Program-made: the position numbers and the translations under genes
Origin: Sulfurivermis fontis
Lineage (GTDB): Bacteria; Pseudomonadota; Gammaproteobacteria; Thiohalomonadales; Thiohalomonadaceae
Length of the DNA stretch: 64,000 bases
Direction: 5' to 3'
Assembly (NCBI RefSeq): GCF_004001245.1
Contig: NZ_AP018724.1
Coordinates: 2,658,501-2,722,500 of the forward strand
The notes under the pieces: model-generated
The model's database searches: none
What the model was told of the DNA's origin: nothing
The model's input: the letters and a program-made list of their open reading frames with translations, nothing else
Part shown: piece after piece, positions 1 to 37,860 of the stretch
How positions within the stretch are numbered: position 1 is the stretch's first letter
Layout: each line of letters starts with the position of its first letter

Positions 1-704
1 CGGCCATGATTCACTCCATCCAGAGCGAAATCGCGGCCGTCACCACCACCATGCAGACCGGTGTCGATCGCGCCGACAACAGCCGCCAAGCGGCCCTGCA
101 AACCGGCGCGGCCTTCGATACGGTAAAGGGTGGCATCGAGACCGTGACCACCCTCATTGGCCAGATCGCTGCCGCTGCCAGCGAGCAGCAGACGGCCACC
201 GAGGAGATTGCCGCCAGCATCCAGATGATCTCCGAACTCGCCAGCAACAACACACGTCAGGCACACAGCGCCGTCGATACCATCGAACAGATGAATGCCG
301 TGATCGGCGATCAACTGCGCACGCTGGAGCAGTTCCAGATCCCGCACAAGGCGGTGCTGGTCGCCAAGTCCGATCACATGCTGTGGAAGAAGCGTCTCAC
401 CGAACTGCTGCTCGGCCGCACCCAGATGCGCTCCAGCGAGGTGACCGACCACCACTCCTGCCGCTTCGGCAAGTGGTACTACAGCAGCGGCAAGGAGATG
501 TACGGCGGCATCGCGGCATTCCGCGCCATCGAGGAGCCGCACCGCCAGATCCATGCCATCGCCCGCCAGGTAGTCGAGATGCACGAGACCGGCAACAAGA
601 CCGAGGCACAACGCCTGGTGGAGCAGCTCAGCGCCCCCACCGCCGAGGTGCTGGCGCGGCTGGACGAATTGCACCGCATGGCGGCGGGAAAAAGTGACAA
701 GTGA
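1..704 (+). CDS. Methyl-accepting chemotaxis protein, C-terminal part, with CZB zinc-binding domain (5' partial)
   Basis: The reading frame is open to the left edge, so only the C-terminal ~233 residues are visible. They hold the end of the coiled-coil signalling domain (an SEQQTATEEIAASI stretch typical of chemoreceptor helices), followed by a CZB (chemoreceptor zinc-binding) domain. The CZB signature is visible: a His in KSDHMLWK, the CRFGKWYYS cysteine motif, and two His in EPHRQIH. CZB domains bind zinc and in other receptors sense oxidants or metals. The final residues (KSDK) and the stop codon are read from the first units of a heptamer repeat array, so the 3' end of the gene has been touched by that repeat. 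The sensory domain is outside the window, so the ligand is unknown. Confidence 0.9.
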   Translation, partial: AMIHSIQSEIAAVTTTMQTGVDRADNSRQAALQTGAAFDTVKGGIETVTTLIGQIAAAASEQQTATEEIAASIQMISELASNNTRQAHSAVDTIEQMNAVIGDQLRTLEQFQIPHKAVLVAKSDHMLWKKRLTELLLGRTQMRSSEVTDHHSCRFGKWYYSSGKEMYGGIAAFRAIEEPHRQIHAIARQVVEMHETGNKTEAQRLVEQLSAPTAEVLARLDELHRMAAGKSDK

Positions 705-828
705 CAAGTGACAAGTGACAAGTGACAAGTGACAAGTGACAAGTGACAAGTGACAAGTGACAAGTGACAAGTGACAAGTGACAAGTGACAAGTGGGATTG
801 TTCGCTTCTTCTTGTAACTTGTCACTTT
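691..828. repeat. Heptamer array with inverted arm (GTGACAA x14)
   Basis: Positions 694-791 are fourteen perfect tandem copies of GTGACAA followed by GTG. An inverted arm at 811-828 (CTTGTAACTTGTCACTTT) pairs with the left edge of the array at 691-708 with one mismatch. The array overlaps the last codons of the chemoreceptor gene. Perfect heptamer tandems are prone to slippage, and seven is not a multiple of three, so copy-number change here would alter the reading frame of anything translated through it. Similar arrays lie at 6950-7029, 13887-14088 and 36469-36575. Confidence 0.9.
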
Positions 829-831
829 TAA

Positions 832-4674: not shown

Positions 4675-5234
4675 GCTGCGTCCCTCTTCCGTTCGAGGAT
4701 CAGAAAACTGAAGGCATAGGGATTGCTCTCGTCGGCGGGATGATCGCCGCGCTCCACCTCGCGCCAGTCGTCCCAGTCAAATGCGGGAAACCACGCATCA
4801 CCGTCCACCGCGGCGTGCACCAGGGTCAGGATCAGGCGATCGGCCCGCGGCAGCATCTGCCGGTAGAACGATTCCCCGCCGATGATCATCACCTCGGGCG
4901 CATCACCGGCGGCGTGCAGCGCTTCATCGATGGAGTGCGCCACCGTGATGCCCGGCACCTGATACGCCGTATCGTTGGTGATTACGATATTGTGCCGCTC
5001 CGGTAACGGTCGGCCCAGGGACTCGAAGGTCTTACGCCCCATCAGGATCGGCTTGCCCAGGGTATGGCGGCGGAACCACTTCATGTCGCCGGGCAGATGC
5101 CAGGGCAGGCGGTTCTCGATGCCGATGACGCGGTTCTCCGCCAGGGCGACGATAATGGAAATGATTGGTTTCGCGTTTCGGGTTTCGGATTTCGAAACAT
5201 CACCTTCGTCATGCACTGTGTCCACCGTTGGCAC
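4671..5234 (-). CDS. folA: Dihydrofolate reductase with repeat-encoded N-terminal extension
   Basis: Reduces dihydrofolate with NADPH, regenerating the cofactor used up by the neighbouring thymidylate synthase. The DHFR core begins at [14 protein letters not shown] and continues with [14 protein letters not shown] (catalytic Asp), GRKTFES, and [10 protein letters not shown]. The frame extends about 24 residues upstream of the usual family start, to a GTG at 5232-5234. An AGGAGG five bases before that GTG makes it a convincing start, and no ATG lies nearer the core. Much of the extension (SKSETRNAK) is read from TTTCGNN heptamers at 5169-5196. Total 187 residues against about 160-170 usual. 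Co-directional with thyA upstream. Confidence 0.93.
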
Positions 5235-5262
5235 GTTCGCCTCCTGTTCGAAATTCGGAACT
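5167..5262. repeat. TTTCGNN heptamer palindrome across the folA start
   Basis: Four heptamers TTTCGCG, TTTCGGG, TTTCGGA, TTTCGAA lie in tandem at 5169-5196. A diverged inverted arm, GTTCGAAATTCGGAAC, lies at about 5246-5261. The folA ribosome-binding site and start codon fall in the loop between the arms, and the left arm is translated as part of folA. The architecture (degenerate 7-mers, inverted arms, unrelated loop) is the same as in the CAAGT-type arrays in this window, but the core heptamer differs. Confidence 0.65.
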
Positions 5263-5268
5263 GCGGTT

Positions 5269-6929: not shown

Positions 6930-6949
6930 CGGGGCAGTATCCTTAAAGA

Positions 6950-7029
6950 CAGTTGCAAGTTACAAGTTCCAAGTGACAAGTAACTGCCCCTCTTTTCACT
7001 TGCAACTTGCCACTTGTCTCTTGCAACTG
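6950..7029. repeat. Heptamer palindrome (CAAGTKN type)
   Basis: The outer arms CAGTTGCAAG (6950-6959) and CTTGCAACTG (7020-7029) are perfect inverted repeats. Between them the left side runs in 7-base steps of CAAGTTA, CAAGTTC, CAAGTGA, CAAGTAA, and the right side in CACTTGC, AACTTGC, CACTTGT steps. It fills the gap between the lgt start and the stop of the rRNA methyltransferase gene. The inner left arm matches the array at 36469-36575 closely. Confidence 0.85.
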
Positions 7030-7031
7030 AT

Positions 7032-8225
7032 TCACAACATCACCGACCGCGCGGTAAAGCACTTGATGTATTCGGTCTCGGGGATCGCCGGGTGCAGCGG
7101 ATGGTCCGGGCCCTGGTGGCCCTGTTCCAGGATCTGCAATTGGCGATCGAGATGCCGCGCGCTCTGGTGCAGCAGGTCGAGGAACACCTCGCGCTGCAGG
7201 TGGAACGAACAGGAGGCGGCGACGAGGATGCCGTCCTTGCCGAGCAGCTGCAGCGCCGCCTGGTTGATGCGGCGGTAGGCCTGGATGCCTTCCTTGGCGT
7301 CCTTCTTGCGCTTGATGAAGGCCGGCGGATCGACGATCACCACGTCATAGCGCGCCTTGTCGGCGCGCAGCGCCTTGAGCGCCTCGAAGGCATCGCCCTC
7401 GATGGCGTCCACCCGGTCCGCCACGCCGTTCAACTCCGCATTGCGCCGCACCTGATCCAGGGCCGGGCCGGAGGCATCCACGCAGGTCACCTGCGCCGCG
7501 CCGGCCACCGCGGCGGCGATGCCCCAGCCGCCGATGTAGCTGAACACGTCCAGCACGCGGCCGCCGCGCACATAGCGCTGCATGCGCGCGCGGTTGTCGC
7601 GGTGGTCATAGAACCAGCCGGTCTTCTGGCCGGTGAGCAGCGGCGCCTCATAGCGCACGCCGTTCTCCACCACCGCCACCCTGTCCGGCGCCTCACCCAG
7701 CGCCGTCGCCACGTAGCTGTCCAGCCCCTCCGGTGCCCGCGCCGCGCTGTCGTTGCGCAGCAGGATCGCCCGCGGCTTCACCACCTTGTCCAGCGCCGCC
7801 ACTACATCCTCCTTCAGCACCTCCATGCCGGCGGTGGTGATCTGCGCCACCAGCACGTCGCCGAAACGGTCCACCACCAGCCCCGGCAGCAGATCGCCCT
7901 CGCCGTAGACCAGGCGGTAATAAGGCTCGGCATACAGGCGCTCGCGCAGCGCCAGGGCGACATTGAGACGATGCACCAAAAGAGAGCGGTCCAGCCTCTG
8001 GGCCGGGTCGCGGCTGACCAGGCGTGCGCAAATCAGTGAGTGAGGATTCACATAGCCCGTGCCCAGCGCCTTGCCGTCGCTGGCAATGATTTGCACCGGC
8101 TGGCCGGGGGTGAAGGCGGTGAGCGGAGTGCGCTCCACGTTCACCTCGTTGCTGTACACCCACAGATGCCCCTGACGCAGACGGCGTTCTTCGTTCTTTT
8201 TCAACAACAGCGGGGCAAGCTCCAT
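7032..8225 (-). CDS. rlmI: 23S rRNA cytosine methyltransferase, RlmI family
   Basis: SAM-dependent methyltransferase of the RlmI/RlmK type. An N-terminal PUA-like RNA-binding part (LKKNEERRLRQGHLWVYSNEV) is followed by a central EEHGD-like domain, then a Rossmann methyltransferase with VLDVFSYIGGWGIAAA (SAM loop) and VDPPAFIKRKKD, and the family C-terminus GPDHPLHPAIPETEYIK. I chose the ATG at 8223-8225 (MELAPLLLKK); a TTG four codons upstream is possible. About 397 residues, normal for the family. The last residues (FTARSVML) end just outside the heptamer palindrome. E. coli RlmI methylates C1962 of 23S rRNA; the exact base here is inferred. Confidence 0.88.
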   Translation of the reverse strand: MELAPLLLKKNEERRLRQGHLWVYSNEVNVERTPLTAFTPGQPVQIIASDGKALGTGYVNPHSLICARLVSRDPAQRLDRSLLVHRLNVALALRERLYAEPYYRLVYGEGDLLPGLVVDRFGDVLVAQITTAGMEVLKEDVVAALDKVVKPRAILLRNDSAARAPEGLDSYVATALGEAPDRVAVVENGVRYEAPLLTGQKTGWFYDHRDNRARMQRYVRGGRVLDVFSYIGGWGIAAAVAGAAQVTCVDASGPALDQVRRNAELNGVADRVDAIEGDAFEALKALRADKARYDVVIVDPPAFIKRKKDAKEGIQAYRRINQAALQLLGKDGILVAASCSFHLQREVFLDLLHQSARHLDRQLQILEQGHQGPDHPLHPAIPETEYIKCFTARSVML

Positions 8226-8298: not shown

Positions 8299-8339
8299 GG
8301 AAGCTCTGAATGAGTCCGGAGCTTCCGCGGCACAGGGAT
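8299..8339 (-). mobile_element. MITE fragment (copy 5, one terminal end only)
   Basis: The 41 bases from GGAAGCTCTGAATGAGTCC to the GCGGCACAGGGAT segment match the right terminus of the 205-bp element, inverted, with three differences. The rest of the element is missing. It lies between the divergent rlmI and haem-sensor genes, upstream of an FNR-like site, and looks like a decayed remnant. Confidence 0.7.
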
Positions 8340-13540: not shown

Positions 13541-13882
13541 ATGAACTGCATCTTCTGCAAGATCGCCGCCGGCGAGATCCCCGCCACCATCGTCCATCAG
13601 GACGAGCACGTGGTGGCCTTCCGCGACCTCAACCCGCAGGCGCCGACCCACATCCTGATCATTCCGCGCCGCCATATCGCCACCGTCAACGACCTGGCCG
13701 AGGCCGATGCGGCCACCGTGGGCCGGCTGTTCCTCGCCGCCCGCCGGATCGCCGCCGAGCTGGGCTTTGCCGCAGACGGCTACCGCCTGGTGATGAACAC
13801 CAACGCCGCCGCGGGCCAGACCGTATTCCACATCCACCTGCACCTGCTGGCGGGACGCAACTTCGCCTGGCCGCCCGGATAA
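13541..13882 (+). CDS. hinT: HIT-family purine nucleoside phosphoramidase (HinT-like)
   Basis: 113-residue histidine-triad protein: MNCIFCKIAAGEIPATIV at the N-terminus (zinc-type Cys pair CIFC), AFRDLNPQAPTHILIIPRRHI in the middle, and the active-site triad HIHLHLLAGR near the C-terminus. HinT-type enzymes cleave AMP-lysine phosphoramidates and aminoacyl-adenylates. Start chosen at ATG 13541, preceded by AGGAG. Frames extending further upstream run through the MITE and are rejected. Normal length for the family. Confidence 0.95.
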   Translation: MNCIFCKIAAGEIPATIVHQDEHVVAFRDLNPQAPTHILIIPRRHIATVNDLAEADAATVGRLFLAARRIAAELGFAADGYRLVMNTNAAAGQTVFHIHLHLLAGRNFAWPPG

Positions 13883-13886
13883 CCCC

Positions 13887-14088
13887 AGTTACAAGTGACA
13901 AGTTTTAGAGGCGTTTCTTGCCACTTGAAACTTGCCACTTGAAACTTGTCACTTGAAACTTGTCACTTGAAACTTGTCACTTGAAACTTGTCACTTGAAA
14001 CTTGTCACTTGAAACTTGTCACTTGAAACTTGTCACTTGAAACTTGTCACTTGAATCTTGCCACTTGTGACTTGTGACTTGGGACTTA
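13887..14088. repeat. Large heptamer array (12 x 14-mer) forming the GST leader
   Basis: A left arm AGTTACAAGTGACAAGTTT (13887-13905) is followed, after a ~15-base spacer, by twelve consecutive 14-mers at 13921-14088, mostly TCACTTGAAACTTG, each made of two inverted-sense heptamers. Seven central units are identical; units at the edges diverge (CCACTTGTGACTTG, TGACTTGGGACTTA). The array ends four bases before the start codon of the GST-fold gene, so that gene has no non-repeat leader and no visible Shine-Dalgarno. Transcribed RNA could fold on itself with the left arm. Confidence 0.9.
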
Positions 14089-14092
14089 TCAA

Positions 14093-14749
14093 ATGAAACC
14101 GGAACTGGTCAGCTTCAAACTGTGTCCCTTCGTACAGCGTTCGGTGATCGTGCTGCTGGAGAAGGGCGTGCCCTTCGACATCACCTACATCAACCTGAAG
14201 GAACCGCCGGAATGGTTCCAGCGCATCTCGCCGCTGGGCAAGGTGCCGCTGCTCAAGGTGGGGGATACGGTGCTGTTCGAGTCGGCGGTGATCATGGAAT
14301 ACCTGGACGAGGTCAACCCGCCTTCGCTGCACCCCGCCGATCCGCTGCGCAAGGCGCACAACCGCGCCTGGATCGAGTTTGCCTCCGGCCTGCTGGCCTG
14401 CCAGTACAACCTCACCATGGCGGCAGCCGATGCCGCCGCCTTCGATGCGCAGTGCACGGAACTGTGCGCCAAGTTGGCGCAACTGGAACAGCAGATCGCC
14501 GGACCGCTGTTCAACGGCAGGGAATTCGCCCTGGTGGATGCGGCCTTTGCGCCGTTCTTCCTGCGCCTCGACCTGCTGGAGGGATGGCACCCGCTGGGCC
14601 TGCTGCGGGGGCTGCCGAAGGTGTCGGCCTGGTCGCAGCAGTTGCTGCAACGGCCGGCGGTGCGGGATTCGGTGGTGCCGGAATTCGCGGCGCTGTACCG
14701 CGAACACATCCGCGGCGGCGGTGCCCATGGCGCCAGGGTGTTCTGTTAG
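14093..14749 (+). CDS. Glutathione S-transferase family protein
   Basis: 218-residue GST fold. The thioredoxin-like N-terminal domain starts KPELVSFKLCPFVQRSVIVLLEKGVPF, with a CPF active-site cysteine as in omega/DHAR-like or SspA-like GSTs. The substrate-binding SNAIL-like segment is ESAVIMEYLDEV, followed by an all-helical C-terminal domain. The substrate is unknown; a cysteine-type active site suggests glutathione-dependent reduction or deglutathionylation rather than classical conjugation. The start codon abuts the heptamer array, and the TAG stop lies inside the TTAG target duplication of MITE copy 3, so both edges of the gene are repeats. Confidence 0.88.
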   Translation: MKPELVSFKLCPFVQRSVIVLLEKGVPFDITYINLKEPPEWFQRISPLGKVPLLKVGDTVLFESAVIMEYLDEVNPPSLHPADPLRKAHNRAWIEFASGLLACQYNLTMAAADAAAFDAQCTELCAKLAQLEQQIAGPLFNGREFALVDAAFAPFFLRLDLLEGWHPLGLLRGLPKVSAWSQQLLQRPAVRDSVVPEFAALYREHIRGGGAHGARVFC

Positions 14750-14954
14750 GGAAGCTCTGAATAAGTTCAGAGCTTCCGCGGCACAGGGATGTGCCGCCAT
14801 TTTTCAACGACGATAAGTCGTTGAAAAATGAAGCCAAGCGAAAATCACACGTTTCGCTTGGCGTGGTTTTGTCCACGGATGGACTTATGTCGCGCAGCCC
14901 AGGGAGGGGCGGGAGCGACCTGAGAAGTCCAGGATGGACTTATTCAGACCTTCC
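14750..14954 (-). mobile_element. 205-bp MITE-like element, copy 3
   Basis: Full-length 205-bp copy in inverted orientation, nearly identical to copy 1. It is flanked by TTAG on the left (14746-14749) and TTAG on the right (14955-14958), a perfect 4-bp direct repeat of the YTAR type used by IS5-subgroup elements. The element fills the gap between two convergent genes. The left TTAG contains the TAG stop of the GST gene, and the right one lies one base from the SH3-protein stop. Its strong hairpins could serve as a bidirectional terminator. Confidence 0.9.
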
Positions 14955-14959
14955 TTAGG

Positions 14960-15526
14960 TCAGAGTTCCAGACCGCCCAGGCGCTGCGCCACCCGCTCCT
15001 TGTCCCAGCGCACGCCCAGGTACACGCCGAGGGCAAACAGCACGATCAGTGCCGCCGCGTAATACAGCCAGCCATAGGCAGAACCCTCCTCCTGCAACTG
15101 CGCCTGCAACTCCGCCATCCGGCTTTGCAACTGGCTGTTTTCAGCCTGCAAGGCCTCGATGCGCGCGGTGAGCTGCTCGACCTGTGCACCGCTCGCGCTG
15201 CTGCTGCTGCGCAGCTGTGCCAACTCCTGCTGCAAGCGATCGCGCTCCTGCTCCATCCGCTCCAGACGTAACTGCGCCGGCAGTTCGCTGGTGGCATAGA
15301 CCTCGCTGATCCAGCCTTCCACCCCGCCGGACGTGCGCACGCGCAAATGACCGGCCTGACGTTCCAGCACCGTCAGCTCGGTGCCGGAAGTCACTACCGT
15401 GATGGGGGTATCGCTGGAATTGGGTTGCGCGCGTACACCCACGCGCAGGACGTCGCTGATATAGACCGTCTCCGCCTGGGCCGGCATCAGGGCAAGCAAC
15501 ATGAGCAGAAAGAGAGCCTGTCGCAT
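14960..15526 (-). CDS. SH3-domain, coiled-coil membrane protein (TIGR04211/YgiM type), copy 2
   Basis: 188 residues with the same plan as the protein at 11282-11935: signal peptide (about 1-18, AQAETVYISD), SH3 domain (VRAQPNSSDTPI, LRVRTSGGVEGWISEVYA), coiled coil (about 85-150), C-terminal membrane helix (about 152-172) and a charged tail (RWDKERVAQRL). Sequence similarity to copy 1 is clear in the SH3 domain and low in the coiled coil, so this is an old paralogue rather than a recent duplication. Function unknown; probably an envelope protein facing peptidoglycan. Confidence 0.82.
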   Translation of the reverse strand: MRQALFLLMLLALMPAQAETVYISDVLRVGVRAQPNSSDTPITVVTSGTELTVLERQAGHLRVRTSGGVEGWISEVYATSELPAQLRLERMEQERDRLQQELAQLRSSSSASGAQVEQLTARIEALQAENSQLQSRMAELQAQLQEEGSAYGWLYYAAALIVLFALGVYLGVRWDKERVAQRLGGLEL

Positions 15527-35155: not shown

Positions 35156-35554
35156 ATGCAGGAGAATCAACTTTTGTCCCATTACAGCCAACAGGACCGC
35201 GAGCAGCTCGCCATCCTCGTCATGGGCGTGCTGGATGACTGGAACATTCGTGAAGAATACCAGATCAGCCTGCTCGGCCTGCCGGAAGACACGGCCGTAC
35301 GCGAACTGACAAAATTCAGCCGCGGCAAGGCCCTGCCCGATGACGATGATCTGCTCGCCCGTGCCGTGCATCTCATCGGCATCCACCAGGCCCTGCACGT
35401 GGTATTCCCGCTCAACCCCAAGATGGCCGGTTTCTGGCTCACCACGCGCAACCGCTATTTCCGCGGCCAGCCGCTGACCGTGATGCTGGAAGAGGGCCTG
35501 CCCGGCATGGACCGCGTGTGGCGCCATCTGGACTGTACCCGCAACTGGGAATGA
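35156..35554 (+). CDS. MbcA/ParS-type toxin-binding (DUF2384) protein without toxin
   Basis: 132 residues. The C-terminal half reads WLTTRNRYFRGQPLTVMLEEG then LPGMDRVWRHLDCTRNW, the DUF2384/MbcA-ParS toxin-binding signature in its long gammaproteobacterial form. The N-terminal half is helical (YQISLLGLPEDTAVRELTKFSRGKALPDDDDLLARAVHLIGIH) and could hold a degenerate DNA-binding fold. No RES-domain toxin gene is adjacent on either side, so this is either an orphan antitoxin or a domain reused for regulation. Divergent from the thioredoxin gene with almost no gap. Confidence 0.8.
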   Translation: MQENQLLSHYSQQDREQLAILVMGVLDDWNIREEYQISLLGLPEDTAVRELTKFSRGKALPDDDDLLARAVHLIGIHQALHVVFPLNPKMAGFWLTTRNRYFRGQPLTVMLEEGLPGMDRVWRHLDCTRNWE

Positions 35555-35561
35555 AGAAGAC

Positions 35562-35675
35562 AGCTACGAGCTACAAGGGACAAGGTACGAAAACACGTCT
35601 GCAGCGTATGTTTCCCATTGGCTGATCTGGCCGTGCGCGCAGCACACCGCTTCCTCGTATCTCGTGCCTCGTACC
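35562..35675. repeat. ACGAG-type heptamer palindrome
   Basis: Left arm in 7-base steps (CTACGAG, CTACAAG, GGACAAG, GTACGAA) and inverted right arm at 35653-35675 (CTCGTAT, CTCGTGC, CTCGTAC steps), with a ~60-base loop. The right arm reversed reads GGTACGAGGCACGAG, matching the left arm unit by unit. It has the architecture of the CAAGT-type arrays with a different core. It fills most of the gap before the TauE/SafE gene. Confidence 0.65.
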
Positions 35676-35725
35676 CGACGGCCGCCTGGCCAACAGGTGC
35701 AGCGTCGTTATAATCCGTGCCCACC

Positions 35726-36463
35726 ATGGACCCGCTCACCCTCGCCGCCTTTCTGTTCATCGTCGCCCTCGGCGCCTACGTGCAGACCGTCACCGGTTTC
35801 GCCCTCGGCCTCATCGTCATGGGCGGCATCACCCTGTTCGATCTCGCCCCGGTGGCCTTTACCGCGATCGTGGTCGGCTTCACCGCCCTGGCCAACAACT
35901 TTCTCGCCCTGCACCGCGCCATACACCACATCGATCGCCGCGGTATGACCTTCACCCTGCTCGGCATGCTGCCGGCGGTCGGGCTGGGTGTGCTGTTGCT
36001 CGACGCCCTGCACAGCACTTCGGTGGAAACCCTGCGCGTGATCCTCGGCGCGGTGATCCTCGCCGGCGGCGTGCTGCTGGCATTGCGGCCGCATCCGCAC
36101 GCCCACCGCGCACCCGGCTGGGTGGATGCCGGTGTCGGTGTCGCCGGCGGCATACTGGCCGGGATGTTCTCCATCGGCGGGCCGCCGCTGGTGTTCCATT
36201 TCTACCGCCAGCCGCTGCCGCTGGCCGTGGTGCGCGCGACGCTGCTGGCCACCTTCGCGGTCGCCACCGTGGCGCGTCTGTTCTACGTGGGGGTGGCCGG
36301 GGATATCACCCTGGAGATGGTGCAGCTCAGCCTGCTGTGCCTGCCGGTAGTGTTTCTCGCCACCGTCGCCGGCCGCCGCTATCCGCCGCCGCTGCCGGAC
36401 CTGGCCATGCGCCGCTTCGCCTTCACGCTGCTCGGCGCCATCGGCGTGATGTTGCTGGTTTAA
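35726..36463 (+). CDS. TauE/SafE-family anion permease
   Basis: 245 residues with seven or eight hydrophobic helices in two repeats; the first has ALGAYVQTVTGFALGLIVMGG and the second VGVAGGILAGMFSIGGPPLVFHFYRQ, the two TauE/SafE half-motifs. Family members export sulfite, sulfoacetate or related anions, plausible in a sulfur oxidiser. ATG 35726 chosen; a GTG three codons upstream is possible. No clear ribosome-binding site. Both ends of the gene are bordered by heptamer palindromes. Confidence 0.88.
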   Translation: MDPLTLAAFLFIVALGAYVQTVTGFALGLIVMGGITLFDLAPVAFTAIVVGFTALANNFLALHRAIHHIDRRGMTFTLLGMLPAVGLGVLLLDALHSTSVETLRVILGAVILAGGVLLALRPHPHAHRAPGWVDAGVGVAGGILAGMFSIGGPPLVFHFYRQPLPLAVVRATLLATFAVATVARLFYVGVAGDITLEMVQLSLLCLPVVFLATVAGRRYPPPLPDLAMRRFAFTLLGAIGVMLLV

Positions 36464-36468
36464 AGGCA

Positions 36469-36575
36469 GTTACAAGTTCCAAGTGACAAGTGACAAGTTG
36501 CAAGTTGCAAGTTGCAAGTTAAAGCGACACCAGCGCGACATCATGCTTGTCACTTGCAACTTGAAACTTGTAACT
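36469..36575. repeat. Heptamer palindrome (CAAGTKN type)
   Basis: Left arm AGTTACAAGTTCCAAGTGAC followed by CAAGTGA, CAAGTTG x3 steps (36469-36520); right arm CTTGTCACTTGCAACTTGAA onward to 36575, inverted. The ends AGTTACAAG and CTTGTAACT are perfect complements. The stop codon of the SPOR-protein gene (36574) lies at the right edge, and the stop of the TauE/SafE gene is eight bases from the left edge, so it separates two convergent genes. Confidence 0.88.
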
Positions 36576-37860
36576 ATTTATCCAGCCCCACCCACGGCGT
36601 CACACCCATCTTGTGGCGGATCATGTCGCTGTAGACCTGGGCCTGTTCGCGCGAGCTGAAGCCGGTGGCGCGCACGCGATACCAGGTGCGGCCATCCATC
36701 TGCGCCGTCTGCACCTCGACGTTGAAACCGGCCTGCTGCATGCGCTGCCTCTCCGTCTCCGCCGCCTTGGCATCGGTGAGCGAGGCCACATTCACCACCC
36801 AGCCGCCGGTCGGCTGGCCCGCCGCCGCTGCAGGTTTGGCCGCCGCCGTGGTCTTGGCCGCCGGCTGGGGCACCGTGGCCGTCGGCTTCGTGGCGGCCTT
36901 GGCAGTGGGCTGCGCTGTCGGCGCCGCCGATTTTGCCGCTGCCTTGCCTGCCGCCTCGGCGGTGCGCGCCGCCCGGGCCACTTCGTCACCCAGCGCCTTG
37001 AGGCGCTGTTCCAGTTCATCGAGGCGCAGATTCATGCTGTTGATCTGCGCACCGGAATCACTCAGGTGGCCCAACGGGCCATCCAGCAGCACCGCCATCT
37101 CGTTGACGCGCTGGGTGAGCAGCGCAAGGTTTTCCTGGGTCTGCCGATCCGGGCCGGCGATGGCCCCGGCCGGCTGCTGGCGCAGCAGGGCCAGCTCGGC
37201 ACGCAGGTCGTTCATCTGGCCGTGCAGGCTGACGGCAAACCAGCCGGCCACCGCCGCGATCACCAGGGAAACCAGCGCGACACCGATGGTGGAGATGTCC
37301 AGGGTCTTGTTCGTATCCATCGCCGCTTCGTCCTCATCCGCCATGATTGATACGGGCGCCGGCGCCGCGGCCGGGACAGCAGCCGGCGATGCCGCGAACA
37401 GGTCGCCGCTGCGGCCGGCGGCCGGGGCACGCTGCGGCGGCTCGGGCGGCGCCATGTCCTCCATCCCGCCGAGGTCCAGGTCATCGGGATCGACATCGGC
37501 ACTCAGTTCGGGGACCTCCTCCACGGCGGAGAGATCCAGTGCCGGGTCCGCCGCCGCCAGGGCCACCTCTTCCAGCAGGGGATCGGCGGCATCTGCCGGT
37601 TCCGTAGTATCTGCGCCCGGCTCCTCCGGCTCCGCCATTTCATCCGCTGCTGCCGCCAGGTCTGCCGGTTCGTTCTCTCCCTGTACCGCAGTCTCGCCCT
37701 GGCCGAACTCGTTGAGAAAGGCATCGAGGGCATCCAGGTCGGTGTTGAGGTCATCGGGCTGCCGGGAGGCATCACCTGCATCGTCGTCCGCCACATCACG
37801 AAAATCTGCCAGCAGATCGTCCTCGTCGTGCTGTCCTGCGGGCGTGTCCTTGTCACTCAT
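36574..37860 (-). CDS. SPOR-domain membrane protein
   Basis: 428 residues: a long acidic cytoplasmic region (about 1-180, rich in Asp/Glu/Ala), one transmembrane helix (about 190-212, TIGVALVSLVIAAVAGWFAVSL), a coiled-coil stretch (about 215-300), an Ala/Pro/Lys linker, and a C-terminal SPOR domain (about 345-428, GGWVVNVASLTDAKAAETERQRMQQAGFNVE). SPOR domains bind denuded glycan at the septum, so it is probably a divisome-associated or envelope protein. The unusual feature is the large acidic cytoplasmic N-terminus. The stop codon is at the edge of a heptamer palindrome. Confidence 0.87.
   Translation of the reverse strand: MSDKDTPAGQHDEDDLLADFRDVADDDAGDASRQPDDLNTDLDALDAFLNEFGQGETAVQGENEPADLAAAADEMAEPEEPGADTTEPADAADPLLEEVALAAADPALDLSAVEEVPELSADVDPDDLDLGGMEDMAPPEPPQRAPAAGRSGDLFAASPAAVPAAAPAPVSIMADEDEAAMDTNKTLDISTIGVALVSLVIAAVAGWFAVSLHGQMNDLRAELALLRQQPAGAIAGPDRQTQENLALLTQRVNEMAVLLDGPLGHLSDSGAQINSMNLRLDELEQRLKALGDEVARAARTAEAAGKAAAKSAAPTAQPTAKAATKPTATVPQPAAKTTAAAKPAAAAGQPTGGWVVNVASLTDAKAAETERQRMQQAGFNVEVQTAQMDGRTWYRVRATGFSSREQAQVYSDMIRHKMGVTPWVGLDK

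Follow-up and report, generated by a model that had tools for sequence, protein, structure and literature searches.

A discrete inverted element of four heptamers per arm anchored behind stop codons in Sulfurivermis fontis: a candidate 3'-end element

The window analysed here is a stretch of 64,000 nucleotides of Sulfurivermis fontis corresponding to positions 2,658,501-2,722,500 of a single-contig genome of 3,246,214 bp, labelled G000. An element occupying 6951-7028 of this window is located between the start of lgt, on its left, and the stop of rlmI, on its right, both genes being carried by the minus strand, and 3 nt separate its edge from the stop codon of gene 7032-8225 (minus strand). 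Folding of the RNA covering 6949-7030 gave a value of -32.9 kcal/mol (z -6.5), the structure being made of blocks of 5-10 bp with 2x2 mismatches between blocks. The nearest relatives of G000 are gammaproteobacterial MAGs, namely HGW-Gammaproteobacteria-1 and one labelled Thiohalomonas denitrificans, in each of which rlmI is about 88-89% identical. The gap housing the element is also occupied in three of the genomes compared (G001, G002 and G004). An earlier, sequence-only reading of the window had pointed to six elements of this kind, and all six were recovered. Four of them consist of CAAGTNN units with inverted ACTTG arms (693-828, 6951-7028, 13887-14086 and 36468-36575), while the other two display related cores, i.e., GTTTCG at 5167-5263 and a mixture of AGCTACG, AGCTACA, AGGGACA and AGGTACG at 35562-35675. 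In the frame used hereafter, CAAGTNN as written in that reading becomes AGTNNCA. The arms are listed in Table 1. Rfam 15, searched at the gathering score, gave no match within the window.

Table 1. Arms of the six heptamer elements of the window (positions are those of the window).
Feature	Position	Strand	Basis or context
Left arm, (AGTNNCA)x4 and a fifth, degenerate unit	6951..6985	+	sequence read
Inverted right arm of the same element, (TGNNACT)xn	6994..7028	-	sequence and RNA fold
Expanded left arm, 15 near-identical AGTGACA units	693..797	+	sequence read
Inverted right arm of the array at 693	811..830	-	comparison with the uninterrupted G001
Left arm, four units NGTTTCG/GATTTCG (AGTTTCG-type core)	5167..5194	+	sequence read
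Short inverted right arm of element 5167-5263	5247..5263	-	sequence read
Left arm, three units	13887..13907	+	4 nt behind the stop of HIT-family ORF 13541-13882
Expanded right arm, 24 units	13919..14086	-	sequence read
Left arm, four mixed-core units AGCTACG AGCTACA AGGGACA AGGTACG	35562..35590	+	sequence read
Inverted right arm of element 35562-35675	35653..35675	-	sequence read
Left arm, eight units	36468..36523	+	4 nt downstream of the ORF 35717-36463 stop
Right arm, four units	36548..36575	-	overlaps the stop codon of convergent ORF 36574-37860

The array at 693 provides the stop codon (TGA, 702-704) of ORF 6-704, and its left arm, of 15 units in G000, has ~5 at the site orthologous to it in G001. 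Its right arm is broken at ~831-1259 by another repeat element, which corresponds to an insertion of ~430 bp relative to the sister species and leaves a remnant at ~1259-1274. The interrupting sequence is one copy of a separate repeat family with ends GGAAGCTCTGAA..TTCAGAGCTTCC / GAAGTCCAGGATGGACTTATTCAGACCTTCC, present in the window at 831-1259 and 14744-14961, with related ends near 8308 and 13500; a further copy of this family, of 218 bp, is cleanly missing from the orthologous site of G004. Regarding element 5167-5263, both site and core are common to G001, G002 and G004, and a GTTTCG-like array was also found at locus L035. At 5161-5234, this GTTTCG array adjoins the 5' end of the DHFR gene (folA, minus strand); directly behind it, an ATG is present in G004 and a TTG in G001, and neither of them in G000 and G002, so that the array may be translated in G000 from an upstream GTG. 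The expanded right arm starting at 13919, which stops 6 nt before the ATG of ORF 14093-14749, has only four units at the same site in G004 (24 in G000), and a 14-base higher-order unit (CTTGTCACTTGAAA) within it corresponds to two different words amplified together. A distance of 7 nt separates element 35562-35675 from the preceding stop of ORF 35156-35554; in the same gap, this element is absent from G002, and another inverted repeat is found in G004. The gap of element 36468-36575 contains an array in G004 and a REP-like hairpin in G002.

At the scale of the 3.25 Mb genome, CAAGTNNCAAGTNNCAAGT gave 266 matches (122+144), compared with 0+0 for a reversed-pattern control, which is far more than chance would give. 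The pattern is found in each of the four genomes of the same genus and, at the level of the family and class, in a minority of genomes. TGAACNN x3, which served as the reversed control, itself matched 75+84 times in G004 and 48+20 times in G011, which indicates a further heptamer family. The statistics given below were obtained from a contiguous block of 400 kb and from targeted loci, gene ends being taken from our own ORF calls, and the sister set comprised four genomes, ~75-95% identical at the compared sites. When a contiguous 400 kb was scanned for periodicity irrespective of the core, 14 intergenic runs were detected at period 7, 11 at period 14 and 4 at period 21, versus 0-1 at each remaining period from 4 to 20 and 0 in shuffles. 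The discrete element occurs in ~27 gaps per 400 kb, that is ~220 loci per genome by extrapolation. These data agree with the sequence-only proposal of a distinct repeat class, genome-wide, phased by 7 nt, inverted and gap-filling.

A typical element is written (AGTNNCA)x4-AG, followed by a spacer of ~5-70 nt and by CT-(TGNNACT)x4, for a length of roughly 60-110 bp. Arms of exactly four units predominate, with 29/41 in the unbiased 400 kb sample, from which loci L001-L030, picked for three perfect units, were left out, 17/22 in G004 C31, 13/21 in G002 and 7/12 in G001. The free dinucleotide is biased toward G/T then A/G (GA 29%, TA 18%, TG 15%, GG 13%, TT 9%). Long spacers (e.g., G000:C1 2,450,219-2,450,293, 2,457,830-2,457,860 and 2,727,330-2,727,396) have in common a structured, GC-rich segment bearing a CGCGCAGC/GAGCGCAGCGA motif, which may be a distinct conserved hairpin within the element. 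In genome G076 (L196, L197 and L202), the spacer between AGTTCCA heptamer arms encloses a second inverted array, of CACAGAGGACACAGAGG type, and a MAG labelled Gemmatimonadetes (L042, 3787-3927) has arms of ~six units with a GCTATCA / TGATAGC core, arranged in the same way round a GC-rich hairpin.

RNA folding of the elements gave z-scores of -4.0 to -8.5. The ends had been described as perfect complements, which is true of 6951-7028 and nearly so of 36468-36575, but does not hold as a general rule. Indeed, the free positions match between arms at chance (18/127 in the inner register, 19.5 being expected), and they were not complementary at the other offsets either. With no covariation of the free positions from one arm to the other, stem pairing alone is not the conserved feature. 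This result also bears on how the arrays came about. It had been suggested that slippage or templated copying, rather than descent from one sequence, generated them, an idea which is not new, polymerase slippage being already part of the literature on heptamers (PMC4692102, PMC4679880). In its complete form, the elements would be a purely mutational product, 7-nt-preferring replication slippage combined with quasi-palindrome template switching building and homogenising the arrays. The predominance of period 7 is consistent with such a process, as are the homogeneity of the long arms, the variation of their length between species and the four-unit arm of L018, which carries CC x4 in G000 and TC x4 in G001. 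In arms of 6 or more units, neighbours with the same free dinucleotide were indeed observed in 37/71 cases versus 17.7 by chance. However, this value was 16/147 versus 20.5 by chance in short arms (3-5 units). Hence, slippage accounts for the expansions and not for the basic element, and it was ruled out as the source of the four-unit arms. Template switching was likewise ruled out as the maintaining force, since the free positions are not complementary in any register. The suggestion therefore holds for the lengthening of long arms and fails for the basic element, whose arms are not mutual copies. Furthermore, a purely mutational process predicts neither a four-unit peak, nor an anchoring to stop codons, nor a common core at about two hundred loci. 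It is already disfavoured for the basic element, and we consider it improbable.

The position of the elements relative to genes was tested on 44 elements, the coding strand beside each arm being set by codon statistics. A stop codon was faced by 52 arm ends, in a sample which, like the ortholog sample, contains some of the L001-L030 loci and, where loci overlap, counts a few elements twice; the median distance was 3 nt behind the stop, 43 ends were within -7..+9, and the first unit started at exactly 3 or 4 nt in nearly half of the 52 ends. Stops located inside the array are mostly found at 7-nt steps (-5, -12, -19), the stop codon being then supplied by the array. The element fills a median of 89% of its gap and remains on the stop side in gaps with spare room. 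Gaps with an array were tandem or convergent, none being found among 44 divergent gaps versus 27 among 197 others (Fisher 0.006), a count which follows the correction of two gene calls, the ychF-pth pair and a ferredoxin-subunit/NrfD-like pair (read by eye). One possible divergent case was seen among the 44 elements of the codon-statistics test. In the many gaps without spare room, the anchoring could be mimicked if insertions were tolerated at gene ends only.

Comparison of the sister species showed that these sites persist. A gap with an array in G000 also had one in G004 in 8/9 cases, as against 5/45 for gaps without (Fisher 1e-5). As the same arrays are found at orthologous gaps of separately assembled relatives, they are not an assembly artefact. 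In ungapped orthologous units, the 5-base core differed at 15/535 sites (2.8%) and the two free positions at 60/214 (28%), whereas, with this filter, 22% of core differences would be predicted if the rates were equal. The core could also be kept fixed, and the free positions scrambled, by ectopic gene conversion between copies. The cores had been described as changing. They are not unrelated: AGTTACA, AGATACA, AGTTTCA/AGTTTCG and AGCTACG are one-base relatives, and AGTTACA, AGATACA and AGTTTCG substitute for one another at the same sites and are mixed inside single arrays. Cores joined by single-base steps at orthologous sites look like descent, contrary to what the sequence-only reading had proposed. 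A genome-wide core switch from CAAGT to CAAGA between species was suspected and then discarded, mixed words being found within single arrays instead.

At about six of the compared gaps, an unrelated inverted repeat takes the place of the element in a sister species, i.e., REP-like hairpins, GCAGAGACGC arrays or CGCGAATGAACGCAAAT arrays, the replacing families being REP-like, 8-9-mer and ~12-mer. In G002 C37 and G004 C31, two genes are separated by an inverted array of 8-9-mers of GCAGAGRCGC type (121-132 bp); at the corresponding locus of G000:C1 (~2,682,083, window ~23,583) the genes overlap at ATGA, and in G002 the insert has ATGA on both sides, a possible target duplication. The exchange of families in the same gaps of different species would be expected of a gap filler, selfish or neutral, in which case palindromic repeats of any kind would be tolerated behind a stop and families would swap without function. 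Nevertheless, the strong conservation of the core at fixed sites and the tight anchoring at 3-4 nt even in gaps with room argue against such a filler, to which we give little credence.

The same replacement of one inverted repeat by another in sister species is also compatible with the main rival explanation, a REP/MITE-like non-autonomous mobile element, whose arms would be putative transposase sites acted upon in trans and whose copies would land or survive only behind stop codons. Inverted ends and many dispersed copies per genome fit this explanation, and so does the species-specific amplification of related words, AGTTTCG-type matches numbering 1, 62, 76 and 376 in G000, G001, G002 and G004, respectively. 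However, the copies are old, most sites being shared, and in an inactive old copy the core should not be preserved ten times better than the free positions. In the compared regions, clean filled/empty pairs with target duplication were obtained only for other repeat types and none for the heptamer element. An association with RAYT was rejected as well, RAYT-type genes not tracking the arrays: Y1_Tnp is present in 20/21 genomes irrespective of arrays, and two Y1_Tnp loci of G000 have no flanking arrays. Mobility thus deserves consideration but is, in our opinion, rather unlikely. REP/BIME, which go with RAYT transposases, are short palindromic extragenic elements paired behind genes in hundreds of copies, and the element resembles them in all these structural respects. 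REPs differ in being single hairpins with a conserved GTAG-type foot rather than phased heptamers, and the element is without RAYT association. As the sequence-only reading had stated, it does not look like a classical REP, nor is it a CRISPR, being made of contiguous 7-nt units and inverted arms with no unique spacers of similar length between repeats. Intrinsic terminators were also considered and rejected; the stems are built of 5-bp blocks rich in AT, and in the elements listed the arms are not followed by a T-run.

Taken together, the anchoring to stop codons, the persistence of sites and the constraint on a core whose spacers are free all point towards a 3'-end element that is sequence-specific and is read by steps of 7 nt. 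We therefore favor, with a probability of about 0.5, the explanation that the loci are copies of one discrete four-heptamer inverted element, anchored to the stop codon or supplying it, which would act as a 3'-end element; judging from the sequence comparisons, a sequence-specific role at gene 3' ends is its most likely function. After the stop codon, the RNA (or DNA) would display four regularly spaced 5-base sites opposite four inverted ones, and a putative sequence-specific factor would recognise this four-site array. The interrupted stem of the element may then mark, end, protect or process the transcript. Replication slippage would intervene later, only lengthening some arms. The recognition by a factor and the action on the transcript are what we infer from these patterns, and the same applies to the origin of new copies.

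Among long simple repeats, heptamers are the most frequent in many bacterial genomes, and to our knowledge they have no accepted function. With ~220 natural test sites per genome, the element of S. fontis offers access to this question. It had been presented as an unexplained class; it is not undescribed, being a variant of the known intergenic heptamer class, the heptamers of Xanthomonas, Geobacter and Beggiatoaceae/cyanobacteria being of the same kind (PMC4692102, PMC2700814, PMC4679880). In Beggiatoaceae and cyanobacteria, TAACTGA heptamers sit just before start codons (MacGregor 2015, PMC4679880). Like the element, they are dispersed, intergenic and present in sulfur-oxidising gammaproteobacteria, but their 2-6 units form direct repeats, hardly ever inverted, on the start-codon side (PMC4679880). 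The heptamers of Nostoc and Calothrix are also tandem with an intergenic bias, but they have few inverted pairs and widely spread lengths, with G-rich cores in Nostoc (PMC4692102). In Geobacter metallireducens, 49 dispersed elements of four tandem heptanucleotides, GGACCGG, have been listed (PMC2700814). These share with our element the dispersed groups of four tandem heptamers, and differ by their core and by their occurrence also within genes, inverted pairing not being among the features given in the text consulted (PMC2700814).

The closest counterpart is the GGGNATC/GGGAATC repeat of Xanthomonas, with 186 arrays, mostly of four units, and 70 convergent pairs, few repeats being located between divergent genes (Rehm et al. 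2015, PMC4692102). Both are heptamers with five conserved and two free positions, a mode of four units and convergent inverted pairs; nearly all copies are intergenic, near stop codons and seldom between divergent genes, and 80-90% are at the same site in sister species, with varying length (PMC4692102). Hence, the element displays the 7-nt period with about five conserved positions, the preference for four units and the convergent intergenic pairs depleted between divergent genes of the Xanthomonas-type class, and lacks its G-tracts. Besides, its anchoring to stop codons, as measured here, is tighter, and in the S. fontis genus a given gap can switch between related words and between unrelated repeat families. 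In Xanthomonas, the number four was attributed to G-quadruplex formation (PMC4692102), and no follow-up explaining this rule of four was found in the literature. Unit length, preference for four, inverted pairing and intergenic bias would suit the same explanation here, four units providing four G-tracts. However, the AGTNNCA core has no G-run on either strand, excluding a G-quadruplex, and yet obeys the rule of four. G-quadruplex formation is thus not the cause of four in this element, for which we regard it as extremely improbable, and this cause becomes doubtful for the class, all structural features of the Xanthomonas repeats being present except the G-tracts. In two Lysobacterales genomes with a GGGATTN core, 17/22 arms had four units and two complete pairs lay 3 and 8 nt behind stop codons. 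It is possible, as a tentative generalisation, that exactly four inverted heptamers placed 3-4 nt behind the stop constitute one general bacterial 3'-end element, whose core would drift between lineages (AGTNNCA, AGATNCA, AGTTTCG, GGGATTN, GGACCGG), the number four and the 7-nt spacing reflecting a putative tetrameric or processive factor (protein or RNP) co-evolving with the core, and the G-quadruplex of Xanthomonas being incidental. With a G-tract-free core that combines the rule of four, stop anchoring and core constraint, the question raised by these known systems moves from slippage or G-quadruplexes to a factor that would read four 7-nt steps.
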